This document shows positions 5,076-14,015 of a DNA stretch of 64,000 nt, piece after piece. This stretch comes from Ferruginibacter sp. Lineage in GTDB: Bacteria > Bacteroidota > Bacteroidia > Chitinophagales > Chitinophagaceae. The stretch covers positions 1 to 64,000 of the forward strand of contig JACMLJ010000046.1 in NCBI GenBank assembly GCA_014379625.1. The letters are read 5' to 3'. A program made the translations under genes and the position numbers. Position 1 is the first letter of the stretch; every line of letters starts with the position of its first letter. Below the pieces are notes generated by a model, which saw only the letters and a program-made list of their open reading frames with translations, was not told the DNA's origin and did no database searches.

Positions 5076-6569
5076 TTATTCTCCTTCCTGCACCTCCTTT
5101 AGCGGCTTAAACGGACTCCTTTTTTTTCGGGGATCGGTTCCATCCATTTGCACAATTTTAGGATAAAACTCCCCTAACACATCTACCAGACATTGTTGGC
5201 TTTGCATCACCTCACGTATATCCTTATACGCAAATGGCGCCTCATCCAGTCCACCGCCAACTAAAGTTACCCCGTATTCTTTCAGTACTTTATTTAACGA
5301 CTGGTGGGTAATATTTTCCAGCGCTTTGGTACGGCTCATCTTACGGCCGGCCCCGTGACTGGCAGAGTTGATAGATGCCGGCTCCCCTTTTCCTTTTACA
5401 ATAAAACCCGGCGCTGTCATACTCCCCGGAATGATCCCCAGCACATCCTTACCCGCAGGTGTAGCCCCTTTACGGTGTACAATAACTTCTTTGCCTTTTC
5501 CTTCAGCTCCGCCCAGGATTTCCTTCCAGGCAAAATTGTGGTGGTTCTCCACCACCGTTACCGGTTGTTCACCAACTGCTTTGGCAATTTTTTTATGAAT
5601 CGTATGGTGACAGGCGCTTGCATAATCGCCTGCCAGGTTCATTGCCAGCCAGTATTCCATTCCTTCCTCTGAATCAAGACTCATCCATGCCAGGTGTTTT
5701 GCCTCTTTTGGCAATATTGTTTTTTCCATTGCAATCCGGGTATAGTGATTGGCAATATTGGCGCCCAGGCCCCGGCTTCCGCTATGGCTCAGCAAACCAA
5801 TATATTTTCCAGGCGCTAACCCAAATGGATTTCCGGGGTCTGTAATGGCCACTTCTCCAAACTCCACAAAATGATTGCCACTACCGGAAGAGCCTAACTG
5901 CCGGGCTGCCTTTGTTTGCAAACCGGTTAAAAAAGCGATCTCTTTAAACTCCTTCCGGTCTATTACTTCATGCTCCGTTAATCCGCCATTAAGGGCATTG
6001 CCGCTAAAATCCCTTCCCGCGCCAAACAAAGTATGGGCAATCAATTCACGTTTAAAAAAAGATGCTTTCTTTTCCAGGTCAGTAGCGGGAAGGTTAAAAA
6101 TACTCAGGCACATCCTGCACCCGATATCCACACCAACTGCATAAGGAATAATGGCATTATTGGTGGCCAGTACACCCCCGATCGGCAAACCATAACCCTG
6201 GTGGGCATCGGGCATTAAAGCGCCCGCAACAGACACTGGCAACCTTGATGCGATTTCCATCTGTTGTATGGCGCCATCTTCTATAAGGTTTGCACCGAAT
6301 ACGGTGTAAGGACAAGCCTCCCCCAGCTCCACCAAAAGAGAGGTTTTAGAAGACGCTGCCGGCACCAACTTTTCTGCGATTTTTACCAGTACCTCGTTTT
6401 CTAAATAATTCTCAGGGGATGCCAATACCTCTTTTAGTATTTGCAAAGCAGCCTCCTCTGTATGGTGTTTAAAGTGAGCGCTCATGGTATGCATGGCCAC
6501 ACTTATCACCGGCCCTTCGGGGTAGCCAATGGCCCGGATTTGTTTTCCGGTTAATTTTAATTTGCTCAT
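5076..6569 (-). CDS. rtcB: RtcB family RNA-splicing ligase
   Basis: GVDIGCRMCLSIF, GSGNHFVEFGEV, HSGSRGLG, ENHHNFAWKE, SHGAGRKMSR motifs. Confidence 0.95.
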   Translation of the reverse strand: MSKLKLTGKQIRAIGYPEGPVISVAMHTMSAHFKHHTEEAALQILKEVLASPENYLENEVLVKIAEKLVPAASSKTSLLVELGEACPYTVFGANLIEDGAIQQMEIASRLPVSVAGALMPDAHQGYGLPIGGVLATNNAIIPYAVGVDIGCRMCLSIFNLPATDLEKKASFFKRELIAHTLFGAGRDFSGNALNGGLTEHEVIDRKEFKEIAFLTGLQTKAARQLGSSGSGNHFVEFGEVAITDPGNPFGLAPGKYIGLLSHSGSRGLGANIANHYTRIAMEKTILPKEAKHLAWMSLDSEEGMEYWLAMNLAGDYASACHHTIHKKIAKAVGEQPVTVVENHHNFAWKEILGGAEGKGKEVIVHRKGATPAGKDVLGIIPGSMTAPGFIVKGKGEPASINSASHGAGRKMSRTKALENITHQSLNKVLKEYGVTLVGGGLDEAPFAYKDIREVMQSQQCLVDVLGEFYPKIVQMDGTDPRKKRSPFKPLKEVQEGE

Positions 6570-6663
6570 TGTTTTATTATTGTTTGTATTGTTCCGTTTT
6601 TAGTTTTGCATTGCAGGAAATCAATTCAAAAGAGTACCCGCTTTAAGGATTTGATTTTATGCG

Positions 6664-6813
6664 CTATGGTGATAAAAAATGACACCAAGTTCTCACTTTT
6701 TTAATTAGTGTCTTACCAGGCACGGTTTTCACCTCCAGCTTTTTTTGTCGGGCAGTTCTTAATTGGTAGCAAAGTATTTCGCTTCCAAATTGTTCCATAA
6801 AATTTTTGTCCAT
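6664..6813 (-). CDS. Short ORF (49 aa) MDKNFMEQFGSEILCYQLRTARQKKLEVKTVPGKTLIKKVRTWCHFLSP
   Basis: Manually translated ATG-to-TAG between rtcB and the ykuK-like gene, same strand. Confidence 0.35.
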   Translation of the reverse strand: MDKNFMEQFGSEILCYQLRTARQKKLEVKTVPGKTLIKKVRTWCHFLSP

Positions 6814-6990
6814 AAAATTTGTTTTAGTTCCGATCGTTCAATGCCACACAGGATGGCGTGTACCGCAATTCATTTATGGACTTGTAATTTTTTTTCACCT
6901 GGTTATATTTTAATTTTTTAAAAAATTAGTAACTGATTTTAGAAGTTATTGCAAAGTACGCCGCCGCATAACGGAGGATTTACAGGCCAT

Positions 6991-7596
6991 TTACTGCACC
7001 ACTTTATTAGCACAACTACTACTTGCAAATGCTTCCGGCTTAGCCCTGAAAACAAAACCCATCCCCAGTATATAACCCATTGCTTCCTTCAACGCATCAT
7101 TACTTTTGAACGACGTGTTGGTGTTGATATCCGCGTGTACTTCCATATCCACATCGTACATGGAGAATATATTGCACAGCGAATAGGCTATATCGATACT
7201 CTTCGCAACTTCCAGCAACATCCTTTCTTTAATGCTCATCCTTTGCCGGGTGGTTTCATTGTGTGTATACATGAAGCCTCCTTTTCCTTTCCGGATGAAT
7301 ACGATCACGGTAGCGAATTCAGTCGCTTTACCCCCGGTACTTTTGTTACGGCAGGCTTTCACCTGGCTATCAGTGCCGATACATACTTTTAGTTGGTGGC
7401 CCATTTCTTTTTCCCTGATTACAGCCGCCATCACTTCATCATTAATTGGCTGGTGAATTTTTTCACCGCTTAATTTTCTCCATTGTTGTTGATGTTTCAT
7501 GGTCTTACCCTGATCCCAAAGGGAGTTTTGAAATATTTTTTTTTGTTCACCGGCATTTGTACCCTGGTTGAACTTCAGTGGCGACGCTCCGTTCAA
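6991..7596 (-). CDS. YkuK-type (DUF458) ribonuclease H-like protein
   Basis: CIGTDSQV...FATVIVFIRKGKGGFMYTHNET...VDMEVHADINTNTSFKSNDALKEAMGYILGMGF; start probably at internal MKHQQQW. Confidence 0.8.
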   Translation of the reverse strand: MNGASPLKFNQGTNAGEQKKIFQNSLWDQGKTMKHQQQWRKLSGEKIHQPINDEVMAAVIREKEMGHQLKVCIGTDSQVKACRNKSTGGKATEFATVIVFIRKGKGGFMYTHNETTRQRMSIKERMLLEVAKSIDIAYSLCNIFSMYDVDMEVHADINTNTSFKSNDALKEAMGYILGMGFVFRAKPEAFASSSCANKVVQ

Positions 7597-7629
7597 TAGT
7601 TGTTTTTCAATTTTGCTTTTCCCACGTTA

Positions 7630-7746
7630 CTATTGTTAAGTTAAGTGTGAATGGGCAATAGTGACCCGATAGCTATCCGGTGGTGGTTATTTCACCATTG
7701 ACCATTCACAAATCGATCAGTCATTTTATGCTTAACATAACACTGG
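7630..7746. repeat. Dispersed inverted-repeat element, copy A
   Basis: ttgttaagttaagtgtgaat...ttcaccattgaccattcac...cttaacataacactgg; shares ends and core with 17954-18073. Confidence 0.6.
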
Positions 7747-7817
7747 CACCAGTACAAGGATTTGAACCCTGGCAGATAGTTTTGGAGACTATCATGCTAC
7801 CATTACATCATACTGGC
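7744..7817 (-). tRNA. tRNA-Trp (CCA), 3' CCA encoded
   Basis: GCCAGTA/TACTGGT acceptor, loop CTCCAAA, T-loop TTCAAAT. Confidence 0.93.
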
Positions 7818-7820
7818 GTG

Positions 7821-7892
7821 CGGACGAAACAGGATTCGAACCTGTAACCACGGTGCTTCAAACCGCTGCTCTGCCATTGGAGCTATTCGTCC
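7821..7892 (-). tRNA. tRNA-Phe (GAA)
   Basis: GGACGAA/TTCGTCC acceptor, loop TTGAAGC, T-loop TTCGAAT. Confidence 0.93.
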
Positions 7893-7895
7893 TTT

Positions 7896-7932
7896 GCAAA
7901 CCTCATAGATTTTAAGAACCTCTGAGGTTTGC
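7896..7932. repeat. Inter-tRNA hairpin
   Basis: gcaaacctca ... tgaggtttgc perfect 10-bp inverted repeat between tRNA-Ser and tRNA-Phe. Confidence 0.7.
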
Positions 7933-8017
7933 GGAGAGTAGAGGGCTCGAACCTCTGTACCGACTTAACGATGACATGGCTTAGCAAGCCTGCACATTAC
8001 CACTCTGTCAACTCTCC
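7932..8017 (-). tRNA. tRNA-Ser (GCT)
   Basis: 86 nt with long variable region; GGAGAGT/ACTCTCC acceptor; loop TTGCTAA; anticodon stem needs a bulge. Confidence 0.85.
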
Positions 8018-8040
8018 AACTTCATTGCACCTACATTTCG

Positions 8041-8112
8041 CGGAAACAGAATGATTCGAACATTCAACCCTCTGCTTAACAAGCAGCCGTTCTGCCATTG
8101 AACTATGTTTCC
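8041..8112 (-). tRNA. tRNA-Asn (GTT)
   Basis: GGAAACA/TGTTTCC acceptor, CTGC TTGTTAA GCAG. Confidence 0.93.
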
Positions 8113-8116
8113 TTTG

Positions 8117-8191
8117 TTGGCCCGGAGAGATTCGAACCCTCAACCCCCGGATTAAAAGTCCGGTGCATCTAAACCATTGAGCTACGGGCCA
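8117..8191 (-). tRNA. tRNA-Lys (TTT)
   Basis: TGGCCCG/CGGGCCA acceptor, CGGA CTTTTAA TCCG. Confidence 0.93.
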
Positions 8192-8197
8192 GTTTTG

Positions 8198-8270
8198 TGA
8201 TGGCTAAAGGACTTGAACCTTTAACCGCTATCGTATCAGGATAGCGCTCTGCCAATTGAGCTAAGCCATC
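8198..8270 (-). tRNA. tRNA-Ile (GAT)
   Basis: GATGGCT/AGCCATC acceptor, CTATC CTGATAC GATAG. Confidence 0.93.
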
Positions 8271-8284
8271 AATTATTTTTTTTG

Positions 8285-8357
8285 TTGGCCTGAACAGATT
8301 CGAACTGTTAACCTTGAACGTATAAGGTTCCCGCTCTCACCATTGAGCTACAAGCCA
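8285..8357 (-). tRNA. tRNA-Ile (TAT), unusual isoacceptor
   Basis: TGGCTTG/CAGGCCA acceptor, GGAAC CTTATAC GTTCA anticodon arm, AACAG TTCGAAT CTGTT T-arm. Confidence 0.8.
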
Positions 8358-8365
8358 ATTAATTG

Positions 8366-8437
8366 TTGCGGCTACAAGACTCGAACTTGTATCTGAAGCT
8401 TATGAGACTTCTGAGTTAACCTTTACTCCAAACCACA
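8366..8437 (-). tRNA. tRNA with CAT anticodon (Met or lysidine-Ile)
   Basis: TGTGGTT/AGCCGCA acceptor with wobble pairs, GAAGT CTCATAA GCTTC, T-loop TTCGAGT. Confidence 0.8.
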
Positions 8438-8483
8438 ATGTTTGCCGGCTCCAAAGATGACCTGTCTGCTTATACCAACCGCA

Positions 8484-8561
8484 TTAATTTTCGCCATCGA
8501 ACCATCCTTTAATTTCTTCAATACCCATTTCATTTTTCACTTCATTTGGCGCATTACTCAT
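8484..8561 (-). CDS. MicroORF (25 aa) MSNAPNEVKNEMGIEEIKGWFDGEN in the inter-tRNA spacer
   Basis: Manual translation ATG..TAA; shares KGWF with microORF 9355-9447. Confidence 0.35.
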   Translation of the reverse strand: MSNAPNEVKNEMGIEEIKGWFDGEN

Positions 8562-8570
8562 TACTCACCA

Positions 8571-8643
8571 GGTTGTCTCCGGGAATCGAACCCTGTTCAT
8601 TGCATTCACAGTGCAGTGCTTTACCAGATAAGCTAAAGACAAC
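8571..8643 (-). tRNA. tRNA-His (GTG)
   Basis: GTTGTCT/AGACAAC acceptor, TGCA CTGTGAA TGCA; mismatch in T-stem. Confidence 0.87.
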
Positions 8644-8715
8644 ATGTATCGAAGGATTTGGATCAACATTTTCATAATAAAAACGAAACAACAGGCCTTG
8701 CAGCATTAAAAAAAG

Positions 8716-8787
8716 CGGTTCGTATGGGAATTGAACCCATTGCAACAGATCGACAATCTGTTATGTTAGCCGTTACACCAACGAACC
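8716..8787 (-). tRNA. tRNA-Asp (GTC)
   Basis: GGTTCGT/ACGAACC acceptor, ACAGA TTGTCGA TCTGT. Confidence 0.93.
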
Positions 8788-8807
8788 GGTCGTATATTAA
8801 ACGATGT

Positions 8808-8880
8808 TATAGGAAGCCAGGCTTGTACTGACAAACTTATGATTCCAGGTCACGGATTCTACCATTTGAAATACACCTGT
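8808..8880 (-). pseudogene. Degenerate tRNA-like sequence (possible TGG/Pro anticodon)
   Basis: 73-nt spacing; D-loop-like AAATGGTAGAA, T-arm GTCAG TACAAGC CTGGC, but poorly paired acceptor stem. Confidence 0.45.
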
Positions 8881-8915
8881 ATTTTTACGCCACTTTAAGG
8901 AAAGGCAGATTTTAA

Positions 8916-8950
8916 AAAGCTTCCCCGTTGCATCTCACGGGGAAAGCTTT
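8916..8950 (-). terminator. Hairpin terminator
   Basis: aagcttccccgt-tgcatctc-acggggaaagctt. Confidence 0.8.
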
Positions 8951-8966
8951 ATTCCTCCTCCTGCAT

Positions 8967-9050
8967 CTAATCTTTTGTACCGTGTTTTATCCCATTACAA
9001 GCTTCTGCCGGTGCTGATTGTATCAACCTTATTGCCATTACACGTTGCAT
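8967..9050 (-). CDS. MicroORF (27 aa) MQRVMAIRLIQSAPAEACNGIKHGTKD
   Basis: Manual translation; precedes hairpin 8916-8950. Confidence 0.3.
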   Translation of the reverse strand: MQRVMAIRLIQSAPAEACNGIKHGTKD

Positions 9051-9063
9051 TTATTTGGGGCAT

Positions 9064-9104
9064 AAAAAAGCCCGGTCAAATTTAATTTCGACCGGGCTTT
9101 TTTT
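9064..9104 (-). terminator. Rho-independent terminator
   Basis: aaagcccggtc-aaatttaatttc-gaccgggcttt with flanking A/T tracts. Confidence 0.88.
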
Positions 9105-9117
9105 ATAGAAAAAGGCA

Positions 9118-9255
9118 TTATGCCTTCAACTGTTTACACCGCGGTCGCATGTCTGGATAAAGTTTACCCATATTGCCGTCAAAGAAGCGTTCACCAATAT
9201 TTAGTTTACTGCTAAACCAATGCACTGGCAATAGCTGTATGTGTATCGTTGTCAT
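9118..9255 (-). CDS. MicroORF (45 aa) MTTIHIQLLPVHWFSSKLNIGERFFDGNMGKLYPDMRPRCKQLKA
   Basis: Manual translation; immediately followed by terminator 9064-9104. Confidence 0.5.
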   Translation of the reverse strand: MTTIHIQLLPVHWFSSKLNIGERFFDGNMGKLYPDMRPRCKQLKA

Positions 9256-9296
9256 AATTTTTATCGCTGAAAGAAGTTGATTTAAATTTTTCACAT

Positions 9297-9323
9297 AAAA
9301 AAACCCCGATTTTTATTTCGGGG
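9297..9323 (-). terminator. Rho-independent terminator
   Basis: ccccga ... tcgggg with seven A (U-tract on minus strand). Confidence 0.8.
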
Positions 9324-9354
9324 CTGCATTACTTAGTGTTGGTAAACTTTATGA

Positions 9355-9447
9355 TTACGCACCCGGATAATTAGCACCGAAAACTGTTAGATCCGCTATC
9401 GGACTAAACCAGCCTTTTGTTTCGATATGTAAATTATTGCGTTGCAT
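9355..9447 (-). CDS. MicroORF (30 aa) MQRNNLHIETKGWFSPIADLTVFGANYPGA
   Basis: Manual translation ATG..TAA; followed by terminator 9297-9323; upstream TTTGG-N20-CATCTTTG resembles the Bacteroidetes promoter. Confidence 0.5.
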   Translation of the reverse strand: MQRNNLHIETKGWFSPIADLTVFGANYPGA

Positions 9448-9942
9448 GATATTTTGTTTTGCGATGCAAAGATGAATTTATTTTTTTCACTCTACCAAAT
9501 ATTTTTTTAACTTTTTTTTGAAGAGATCAAAACAGGTTCGCCTGAAACCCAGTGATAGTAAAGCTTTCAGCCAGTAAAAAAATATTTTAAAAATATCCTA
9601 TCACTACCTATTTATCAGTTCAATTGAAATCGTGCTTTGATAATATTTTTTACTTGTTGCAGCCAAAAACTTTTTACGAAATAAAGTATTGTTTATTGAA
9701 ATCGTTTTTAATGCTGCTTCAAACAATCAGAAGAAATGTAACAACCCTGCGTCTTTGCTGATTAAAATGGCTATTTTAAATCTTCGTTTACCTCAAAGTT
9801 TTGCACAAATTACTCAGCCTATTTTATAATGCTGCTTTCTAAATTATATTACTTATCAAATTAAAAAACGAAAAACAAAACAACCTCCAAAAAACACACT
9901 CCTATAAAAATAAAGGTCCCGCATACGCGTAAGCCTGCTGAC

Positions 9943-12087: not shown

Positions 12088-13197
12088 TTAAAATAGTCGT
12101 CCCTGCTCACCAGGCCTTTTGAAAATGGAAGTATTCAAACTCCACTCTTCTGCATTCATGCCGTACAGCCTGCCATATTTCTTATATTGCTGTGCTACCA
12201 TTTGTGCAATATTTCCTTCACCCCGCATGCGTACGCCCCATCTTGTGTCGTTCACTTTGCCATCATGGCTCTGCTCAATCAAATGCCAAACCTTATCCGC
12301 ATGATTGGGAAAATTTTTATACAGCCAGTCATGAAACAACAATTTGATGGCACCGTTTAGCCGGATAAATGTATAGGCTGTAAAAGTTGCACCGGCATCC
12401 GCGGCGGCCTTCATAATCCGTTGCATCTCGTGTTCGTTTAAGCCCGGGATCATTGGCCCCATCATCACCCCCATTCGTACGCCCGCGCTGCTAAGTTCTT
12501 CTATCACTTTCAATTTTTGTTTGGCGGTAGTGGTCCTGGGTTCCATAATACGTCGCAGGTCTTCATTAAAAGAAGTGATGCTTACCATTGCGGAAACAAT
12601 GCCTTTTTTAGCCATTTCCTGCAGCAGATCCTTATCTTTTAATATCCAGGAATTTTTGGTGAGTATCCCTACAGGTTGATTGAATTCGTTGCACACTTCA
12701 AGCAAGCCCCTTGTTAAGCGGTATTGTTGTTCAGCGGGCTGGTAACAATCCGTATTGCCACTCAGCATGATGGGTGCACATTCCCATTTGGGATGCATTA
12801 AAAATTTACGCAACAACTTTGGCGCATTTTTTTTGATGATGATCTTTTGTTCAAAATCCAGCCCGGCGCTGTAACCCCAGTATTCATGCACATTACGGGC
12901 ATAGCAATAAATGCAGCCATGCTCGCAGCCGGCATATGGATTCATACTATAACCCATACCTACATCAGGACTATCTATTTTATTGACGATCGTTTTTGAT
13001 TCCTGCTCAAGGTATTGGGTTGGCCTCCTGGTTTCTTCCCAATCATCAATTCCTTCCACATGCTCCCTGGTGGATTCATTTTTTAAAAAACGGTTCTTTG
13101 TATTGAACTGCGCCCCGCGGCCCTGGATGTATTGAGTAGATTCCTCCTGTGGTGTTACAGATACTTTATGGTGATCCTGTTGCAGTTTGTTTTCCAT
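12088..13197 (-). CDS. PA0069-type radical SAM protein
   Basis: MNPYAGCEHGCIYCYARNVHEYWGYSAGLDFEQKI motif. Confidence 0.92.
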   Translation of the reverse strand: MENKLQQDHHKVSVTPQEESTQYIQGRGAQFNTKNRFLKNESTREHVEGIDDWEETRRPTQYLEQESKTIVNKIDSPDVGMGYSMNPYAGCEHGCIYCYARNVHEYWGYSAGLDFEQKIIIKKNAPKLLRKFLMHPKWECAPIMLSGNTDCYQPAEQQYRLTRGLLEVCNEFNQPVGILTKNSWILKDKDLLQEMAKKGIVSAMVSITSFNEDLRRIMEPRTTTAKQKLKVIEELSSAGVRMGVMMGPMIPGLNEHEMQRIMKAAADAGATFTAYTFIRLNGAIKLLFHDWLYKNFPNHADKVWHLIEQSHDGKVNDTRWGVRMRGEGNIAQMVAQQYKKYGRLYGMNAEEWSLNTSIFKRPGEQGRLF

Positions 13198-13400: not shown

Positions 13401-14015
13401 TCAGGTAAATAACGCTCCCTGTGTGGTTGTTACCGGCAGATTTTGAAATTCAAATCTTTGTGCAATTTCATATTTCATTTCCCCTACAGGTCGCTTTAAT
13501 AACAACATGGCTTCTGCAATAAACCGGCCTGTAAAATTTTTGTTACTGTATTCGAGCCATCCCTTTTCATACTGCCATGGCTGCAACCTGCGTGCAATAG
13601 TTAAATGTGGTTCCATTATAAAATGGGCCTGGTTTTCCTTATTTAATTTCATGAGTTGTTGCGCCTCTGAACGGATTTGTTTTACCAACGACTGTACCGG
13701 CAATTTGGAGGTTATATTGATATAAATGGTGTGTGAAGGAAAACTGCCATAATCTTTCAATTCAATTTTTATGGGATGATAGCCCATGGCAATTGTTTTT
13801 AACCGGTTCACTAACCTTTCTTCCATCATTTGATATTGAACAAAGTTTACGAGTGTAATATGGGGTTTCCCGTACACTGCAGCATCAGCTTTATAAGTTT
13901 CAAAAAATTGCTTTTTTACCTGCATGATCCTGTTGCGCAGGTCTTCGTGCGGATTTAGCACAAGCAGGTATTCATATATTTTATACCCCGGAACGGTGTT
14001 AATGATGTTCTTCAT
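13401..14015 (-). CDS. 2H phosphoesterase / 2'-5' RNA ligase superfamily protein
   Basis: Two HxT-type motifs: KPHITLVNF and EPHLTIARRL. Confidence 0.8.
   Translation of the reverse strand: MKNIINTVPGYKIYEYLLVLNPHEDLRNRIMQVKKQFFETYKADAAVYGKPHITLVNFVQYQMMEERLVNRLKTIAMGYHPIKIELKDYGSFPSHTIYINITSKLPVQSLVKQIRSEAQQLMKLNKENQAHFIMEPHLTIARRLQPWQYEKGWLEYSNKNFTGRFIAEAMLLLKRPVGEMKYEIAQRFEFQNLPVTTTQGALFT

Follow-up and report, generated by a model that had tools for sequence, protein, structure and literature searches.

The locus described here lies in a 64-kb stretch of DNA from Ferruginibacter sp., a soil-type member of the Bacteroidota (the window, to whose whole length all coordinates refer) and combines a gene for the RNA ligase RtcB, a gene for a YkuK-type RNase H-like protein and a dense tRNA array with two leader open reading frames (ORFs), each followed by an intrinsic terminator. 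All features of the locus are on the minus strand, along which the order from position 9499 is a promoter-like element, leader 1, terminator 1, leader 2, terminator 2, a possible third unit, a tRNA relic, the array, ykuK and rtcB, as follows:

9467..9499, minus: predicted Bacteroidota-type promoter (TTTGG ... CATCTTTG), directly upstream of leader 1
9355..9447, minus: leader ORF 1, MQRNNLHIETKGWFSPIADLTVFGANYPGA, 30 amino acids of 19 types
9373..9382, minus: TTTCGGTGCT, predicted region 2 in attenuator 1, with complementarity to the left arm of terminator 1
9302..9325, minus: intrinsic terminator 1, stem of -12.2 kcal/mol with a T-rich tail
9118..9255, minus: leader ORF 2, MTTIHIQLLPVHWFSSKLNIGERFFDGNMGKLYPDMRPRCKQLKA, 45 amino acids, all 20 types
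9142..9147, minus: CGACCG, predicted region 2 in attenuator 2, the complement of CGGTCG on the left arm of terminator 2
9068..9099, minus: intrinsic terminator 2, 13-bp stem of -21.3 kcal/mol
8967..9050, minus: possible leader ORF 3, 27 amino acids of 17 types, specific to the window
8918..8949, minus: intrinsic terminator-like hairpin 3
8808..8880, minus: tRNA relic, 27.7 bits, slightly under the 29-bit cutoff
8715..8787, minus: tRNA-Asp(GTC), divergent (ARAGORN, Rfam); loop TTGTCGA (G37) against CTGTCAC in the housekeeping tRNA
8571..8643, minus: tRNA-His(GTG) (ARAGORN, Rfam)
8365..8437, minus: tRNA of the Met type (CAT) (ARAGORN, Rfam)
8284..8357, minus: tRNA-Ile(TAT) (ARAGORN, Rfam), the sole copy found in the genome
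8197..8270, minus: tRNA-Ile(GAT) (ARAGORN, Rfam)
8116..8191, minus: tRNA-Lys(TTT) (ARAGORN, Rfam)
8040..8112, minus: tRNA-Asn(GTT) (ARAGORN, Rfam)
7931..8017, minus: tRNA-Ser(GCT) (ARAGORN, Rfam)
7820..7892, minus: tRNA-Phe(GAA) (ARAGORN, Rfam), with G37/C38 in place of A37/A38
7744..7817, minus: tRNA-Trp(CCA) (ARAGORN, Rfam), CCA end encoded
6991..7596, minus: YkuK-type RNase H-like gene (PF04308, E 1e-32), probable start ATG at 7500
5076..6569, minus: rtcB, RNA ligase (PF01139, E 9e-79), single copy in the genome

A first-pass annotation of this DNA had described ten tRNAs of the same identities and one relic, followed along the same strand by a YkuK-type gene and by rtcB. Indeed, ARAGORN and Rfam agree on the ten tRNAs (7744-8787), which score 44-68 bits against a family cutoff of 29 bits, the relic was borne out at 8880-8808, and the two protein genes gave the expected Pfam matches. 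That annotation did not include the leader ORFs and terminators, from 9447 to 8918; its end coordinate, 9447, coincides with the leader ORF 1 start codon. The distance between leader stop codon and terminator is 19-30 nucleotides (nt) in units 1 and 2, the only leader units found by a detector of ORF, terminator and antiterminator applied to both strands of the whole window, and no known Rfam leader scored above the gathering score in the leader region.

The window locus was compared with other rtcB loci, 121 in total with the window included, collected from an RtcB scan and from genomes of the family; a few loci are counted twice, as they occur in two collections. An array was defined as at least three tRNAs on the rtcB strand, and the count was made non-redundant. 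As a result, 27 arrays were found upstream of rtcB on the same strand, mostly in Chitinophagaceae, indicating that the synteny of rtcB, ykuK and array is conserved in relatives; the coincidental linkage that the first-pass annotation had allowed for is ruled out by this conservation. YkuK is encoded in 21 of the 27 array loci versus 10 of the 94 array-less ones (Fisher p 4e-11), and leader 1 is present in 23/27 versus 19/94 (p 1e-9). The most frequent array members are Phe, Asn, Lys, Asp, Gln, His, Glu and Arg-ACG, and Ala, Val, Thr, Leu and Gly are rare. Between array and rtcB, the relatives carry genes for AAA ATPase, SPFH/Band-7, DinB-like, RlaP (an RNA-repair nucleotidyltransferase), TROVE/Ro60 and PcfJ proteins, which thus make up a recognisable RNA-repair neighbourhood. 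The regulator RtcR (PF06956) and RtcA (PF01137) gave no match in the genome, which is 94% complete. In the YkuK-type protein, the GTDSQVK and HADINT blocks are invariant in eight relatives; a second YkuK-type gene lies away from the array (G000:C24:224844-225257, L265), suggesting that the array-linked YkuK may be a dedicated paralogue.

Two further observations concern the arrays of relatives. An array of 28 tRNAs, with nearly all isotypes and no recognisable leader 1, lies upstream of rtcB in a Bacteroidia metagenome-assembled genome (L136:1286-7519). In addition, a conserved ORF of 44-46 amino acids, the start of which is hydrophobic and the end of which contains HPA, is located between terminator 2 and the array (L082:3558-3698, L087:4442-4582, L088:3108-3245, L092:3278-3415 and L098:7263-7397); one member had no Pfam match, and the ORF was not seen in the window.

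We then analysed the array tRNAs against the rest of the genome (5.65 Mb, 99 contigs), in which 48 tRNA matches were gathered by search and coordinates. The idea of the first-pass annotation that the array holds backup copies stood for eight of the ten tRNAs: separate housekeeping genes were found for Asp, His, Met, Lys-TTT, Asn, Ser-GCT, Phe and Trp, and for these eight it is ruled out that the array tRNAs are the only genomic copies. Ile-TAT occurs in the array only, and a second Ile-GAT was not seen; since Ala-TGC is missing as well, an rRNA operon possibly remained unassembled. The eight duplicated array tRNAs differ strongly from their housekeeping counterparts, anticodon loop included. 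Housekeeping tRNA-Asp is 99-100% identical across the sampled family genomes and carries A at position 37, whereas the array Asp copies, which carry G or U there, share a median identity of 78% among themselves and 59% with housekeeping Asp, and form a conserved group of their own; most array Phe tRNAs have G37. As for tRNA-Ile(TAT), this species is rare in bacteria, where AUA is usually read by a lysidine-modified CAU tRNA. It is present in 8 of the 27 arrays (window 8284-8357, L078, L087, L088, L092, L157, L164 and L169), its acceptor is similar to that of the array tRNA-Lys, and ATA codons occur in leader 1 of 28 of 37 loci.

Phage tRNAs with altered anticodon loops have been proposed to evade anticodon nucleases (PMC10264068), and by analogy the altered loops of the array tRNAs may confer resistance to such enzymes; at least one nuclease, LshCas13a, preferentially attacks tRNAs with uridine-rich anticodons once activated (PMC11042736). 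The array might also be a phage- or plasmid-derived cluster that landed near rtcB and is now decaying with no role in stress, as its tRNA density, relic, odd loops and variable content would suggest, together with a similarity of ~73-81% between single array tRNAs and phage tRNAs. However, phage coverage of the region is at most 5% among the matches listed and is confined to single tRNAs, the tRNA order Asp-Gln-His-Arg-Lys-Asn-Phe-Trp and the association with YkuK, leader and rtcB are repeated across many genera, and the array Asp tRNAs are a group apart, all of which makes this explanation very unlikely. A phage origin of the region as a whole was rejected, as no match beyond single tRNAs appeared among those listed and the tested neighbour genes match cellular families.

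Leader 1 was used as a profile, which matched 36 of 200 family genomes, nearly always in single copy, and gave no match in the 294 other genomes of a set of 295 drawn from the class, a few of which are family members without leader 1. Among the matches above ~39 bits, 22 of 26 precede rtcB by up to ~14 kb, sharing its contig and strand, and the remaining four sit on fragmented assemblies. At 12 bits or more, leader 1 was found 0.6-8.7 kb upstream of rtcB in 42 loci, with or without intervening tRNAs; in L180 and L181 the distance is ~0.6 kb and the other genes are all missing. With the threshold raised to 20 bits, 37 rtcB loci (35 distinct sequences) were obtained, and terminator 1 is present in all 37, 22-36 nt past the stop codon. 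Blocks of a predicted promoter (TTTGG/TTGG and the CATCTTTGCA type) precede the leader-1 ATG by 15-35 nt in most relatives. The general layout in relatives comprises a leader 1 of ~30 codons with 15-20 amino-acid types and a leader 2 of ~50 codons; the sequence of the latter is poorly conserved, and counterparts with 16-20 types occur in most relatives. In one genome, rtcB is found only as short fragments (G178:C11:701583-702610) and the upstream leader 1 is intact. The window also holds a 25-codon ORF, MSNAPNEVKNEMGIEEIKGWFDGEN, between tRNA-His and tRNA-Met (8484-8561, minus strand), which has a KGWF motif in common with leader 1 and no terminator detected downstream of it.

Codons 22-26 of leader 1 contain TGCGGGGC or a close variant (a variant in the window). 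In all loci this segment shows complementarity to the left arm of terminator 1, so that terminator and antiterminator are mutually exclusive. The duplex of this region 2 with the terminator arm has a mean energy of -19.5 kcal/mol, against -11.0 kcal/mol for shuffled sequences (p<=0.05 in 34 of 37 loci), and RNAfold predicted the 2:3 antiterminator when only the left arm had been transcribed and the terminator for the whole sequence. Attenuator 2 of the window pairs with -15.2 kcal/mol, a value equalled or surpassed by 3% of shuffles (p 0.03). The start of leader 1 also pairs with region 2 moderately above the shuffled level (18.5 versus 13.2), so that a trp-like 1:2, 2:3, 3:4 scheme is possible. 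The units thus display a short leader ORF near a promoter-like element, a close intrinsic terminator and an exclusive antiterminator, as in ribosome-mediated attenuators; a codon run dedicated to one or a few regulated amino acids is not present, and 15-20 types per ~30 codons are found instead. Conservation of leader 1 could alternatively reflect a functional micropeptide with no part in attenuation, since its HIE, WFSP and CGAC motifs are conserved and 43% of its single-difference codons are synonymous versus 21% expected. However, the C-terminal part is conserved as RNA, with GCGGGGC retained in all three reading frames (another frame and other residues in L091, L157, L162 and L169) and matching the terminator arm, and the peptide of leader 2 is not conserved; a micropeptide is thus a very unlikely explanation.

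We also determined the amino-acid coverage of the leaders. Codons 2-21 of leader 1 encode on average 15.8 amino-acid types, compared with 11.7 in 20-residue windows of proteins, only 0.5% of which reach 16 types or more. The full leader 1 has 18.9 types versus 17.3 +/- 0.2 after column shuffling (related sequences included), and leader 2 has a mean of 19.2 types in 50 amino acids versus 16.7 expected. Furthermore, the amino acids of codons 2-21 track the isotypes of the arrays (Spearman 0.64, p 0.003), whereas those past codon 21 anticorrelate with them (-0.60), as expected if early stalls are sensed. Attenuators that respond to a general slowing of ribosomes by antibiotics or ribosome damage, rather than to the loss of individual tRNAs, would explain the same architecture with an incidental diversity of amino acids. 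Precedents exist in the E. coli upstream ORF (uORF) toiL, which responds to several ribosome-targeting antibiotics (PMC12121999), in uORF attenuators of the vmlR type, and in the Anabaena trn operon and rtcB, which are induced by translation antibiotics (PMC10272220). Such a sensor would not need one codon per amino acid, and the diversity exceeds that of both protein windows and column-shuffled leaders, and does so again in leader 2, so that we regard general slowing as unlikely.

Taken together, the locus is probably a translation-stress operon, in which RNA repair and a reserve tRNA set would be placed under tandem ribosome-mediated transcription attenuators. In a healthy cell, ribosomes would traverse both leaders, the terminators would form and the operon would be off. 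Cleavage of one among many tRNAs, or a lack of its charged form, would stall a ribosome early in a leader, region 2 would pair with the left arm of the terminator, and RNA polymerase would read through. RtcB would then religate the cleaved RNAs, the array would provide substitute tRNAs, mainly for NAN codons, Phe and Arg, and YkuK, to judge from its linkage, may act on or with the array tRNAs. Attenuation here would do what RtcR and the repressor TrcR do via initiation control. We infer that the module may answer tRNA cleavage specifically, as the first-pass annotation had proposed.

Several points weigh against the proposed stress operon. It is deduced from sequence, and the related loci are not independent, a few being duplicated between the collections. 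Within the window, the pairing of attenuator 1 is marginal relative to shuffles (p 0.07-0.09), and that of unit 3 is no better than chance, so that this unit is not supported as an attenuator. Region 2 is located 5-9 codons ahead of the stop codon and would be covered only in part by a ribosome paused there, a gap that the pairing between the start of leader 1 and region 2 could fill. Asp, common in the arrays, comes late in leader 1. Finally, some loci that retain leader 1 and rtcB lack an array (e.g. L158, L177, L180 and L181), indicating that the tRNAs are not always in the regulon.

Similar units were also found where leader 1 is absent when the detector was applied outside long genes with no threshold on coverage: the loci lacking leader 1 hold 47 units on the rtcB strand, against 5 on the opposite strand of all loci together. 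Tandem upstream pairs with differing sequences occur in Flavobacterium (L114, L116, L148 and L154), Chitinophaga (L109 and L113) and Hymenobacter (L120, L134, L135 and L137). The coverage of these units is above that of protein windows (mean z 1.05) and not distinguishable from that of the five reverse-strand units (p 0.6), so that the strand bias is the main evidence for them. Chitinophaga, Flavobacterium, Hymenobacter and others share this design although their leader sequences are unrelated, suggesting that it is convergent or ancient. A wider proposal, for and against which we see the chances as evenly balanced, is that RNA repair in Bacteroidota stands under pan-codon attenuators: tandem leaders would have evolved towards about one codon per tRNA species, so that the loss of any of many tRNAs turns RtcB on, together with nuclease-evading reserve tRNAs in one family. 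Separately, tandem attenuator-like units opposite to the rtcB strand (L133:13918-14197, minus strand) precede a solitary tRNA-Phe and a gene for a small protein, which may make up a further operon controlled in the same way. Upstream of the array, the window carries genes for a LigT/2'-5' RNA ligase-like phosphoesterase and a radical SAM protein (13401-14015 and 12088-13197); in L088 and L098, homologues of the two lie ahead of the leader in this same order.

The nearest known system is found in Anabaena PCC 7120, where a reserve tRNA operon (trn), kept besides the housekeeping tRNAs, and rtcB share the stress repressor TrcR (PMC10272220). Co-regulation of array and rtcB as a translation-stress response is predicted likewise here, but the Anabaena array is on a megaplasmid, with rtcB elsewhere and an RHH repressor acting on initiation, whereas the present locus unites array, rtcB and YkuK with predicted leader attenuators. 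As predicted here, RtcB is induced by tRNA damage in the rtcBA operons of Salmonella and E. coli under RtcR (PMC7790460, PMC9650030), with which the related Bacteroidota loci share Ro60/TROVE genes; the CARF domain of RtcR binds cyclic-phosphate tRNA ends, whereas here RtcR and RtcA are absent and the predicted signal is ribosome stalling. The trp, his and ilv attenuators have the same leader ORF, intrinsic terminator and mutually exclusive antiterminator, but with runs of one or a few regulatory codons in place of about one codon for nearly every amino acid in tandem units before tRNAs and RNA repair genes. The toiL uORF (PMC12121999) similarly responds to stalls at many positions, although it acts through occlusion of a ribosome-binding site and Rho on a toxin-antitoxin operon and is not described as covering all amino acids. 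Phage tRNAs (PMC10264068) are likewise extra copies with altered anticodon loops proposed to act against host tRNases; they are phage-borne, whereas the array is chromosomal and tied to RtcB and a predicted regulatory leader. In the literature covered, mainly open papers, we found no account of an rtcB-linked tRNA array in Bacteroidota, of an all-amino-acid attenuator, of attenuation in tRNA operons, of attenuators in Bacteroidota, or of a pairing of RtcB with YkuK.

These results bear on the question of how bacteria lacking RtcR sense damaged tRNA and turn on RtcB. A classical attenuator reports on one amino acid, and a leader in which almost every amino acid is sampled would, if the proposal is true, be a sensor of the integrity of the whole tRNA pool. 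Such a sensor would also connect reserve tRNAs, until now described in phages and on a megaplasmid of a cyanobacterium, with RNA repair encoded on the chromosome, and would provide a readout of defence systems and toxins that cleave tRNA.

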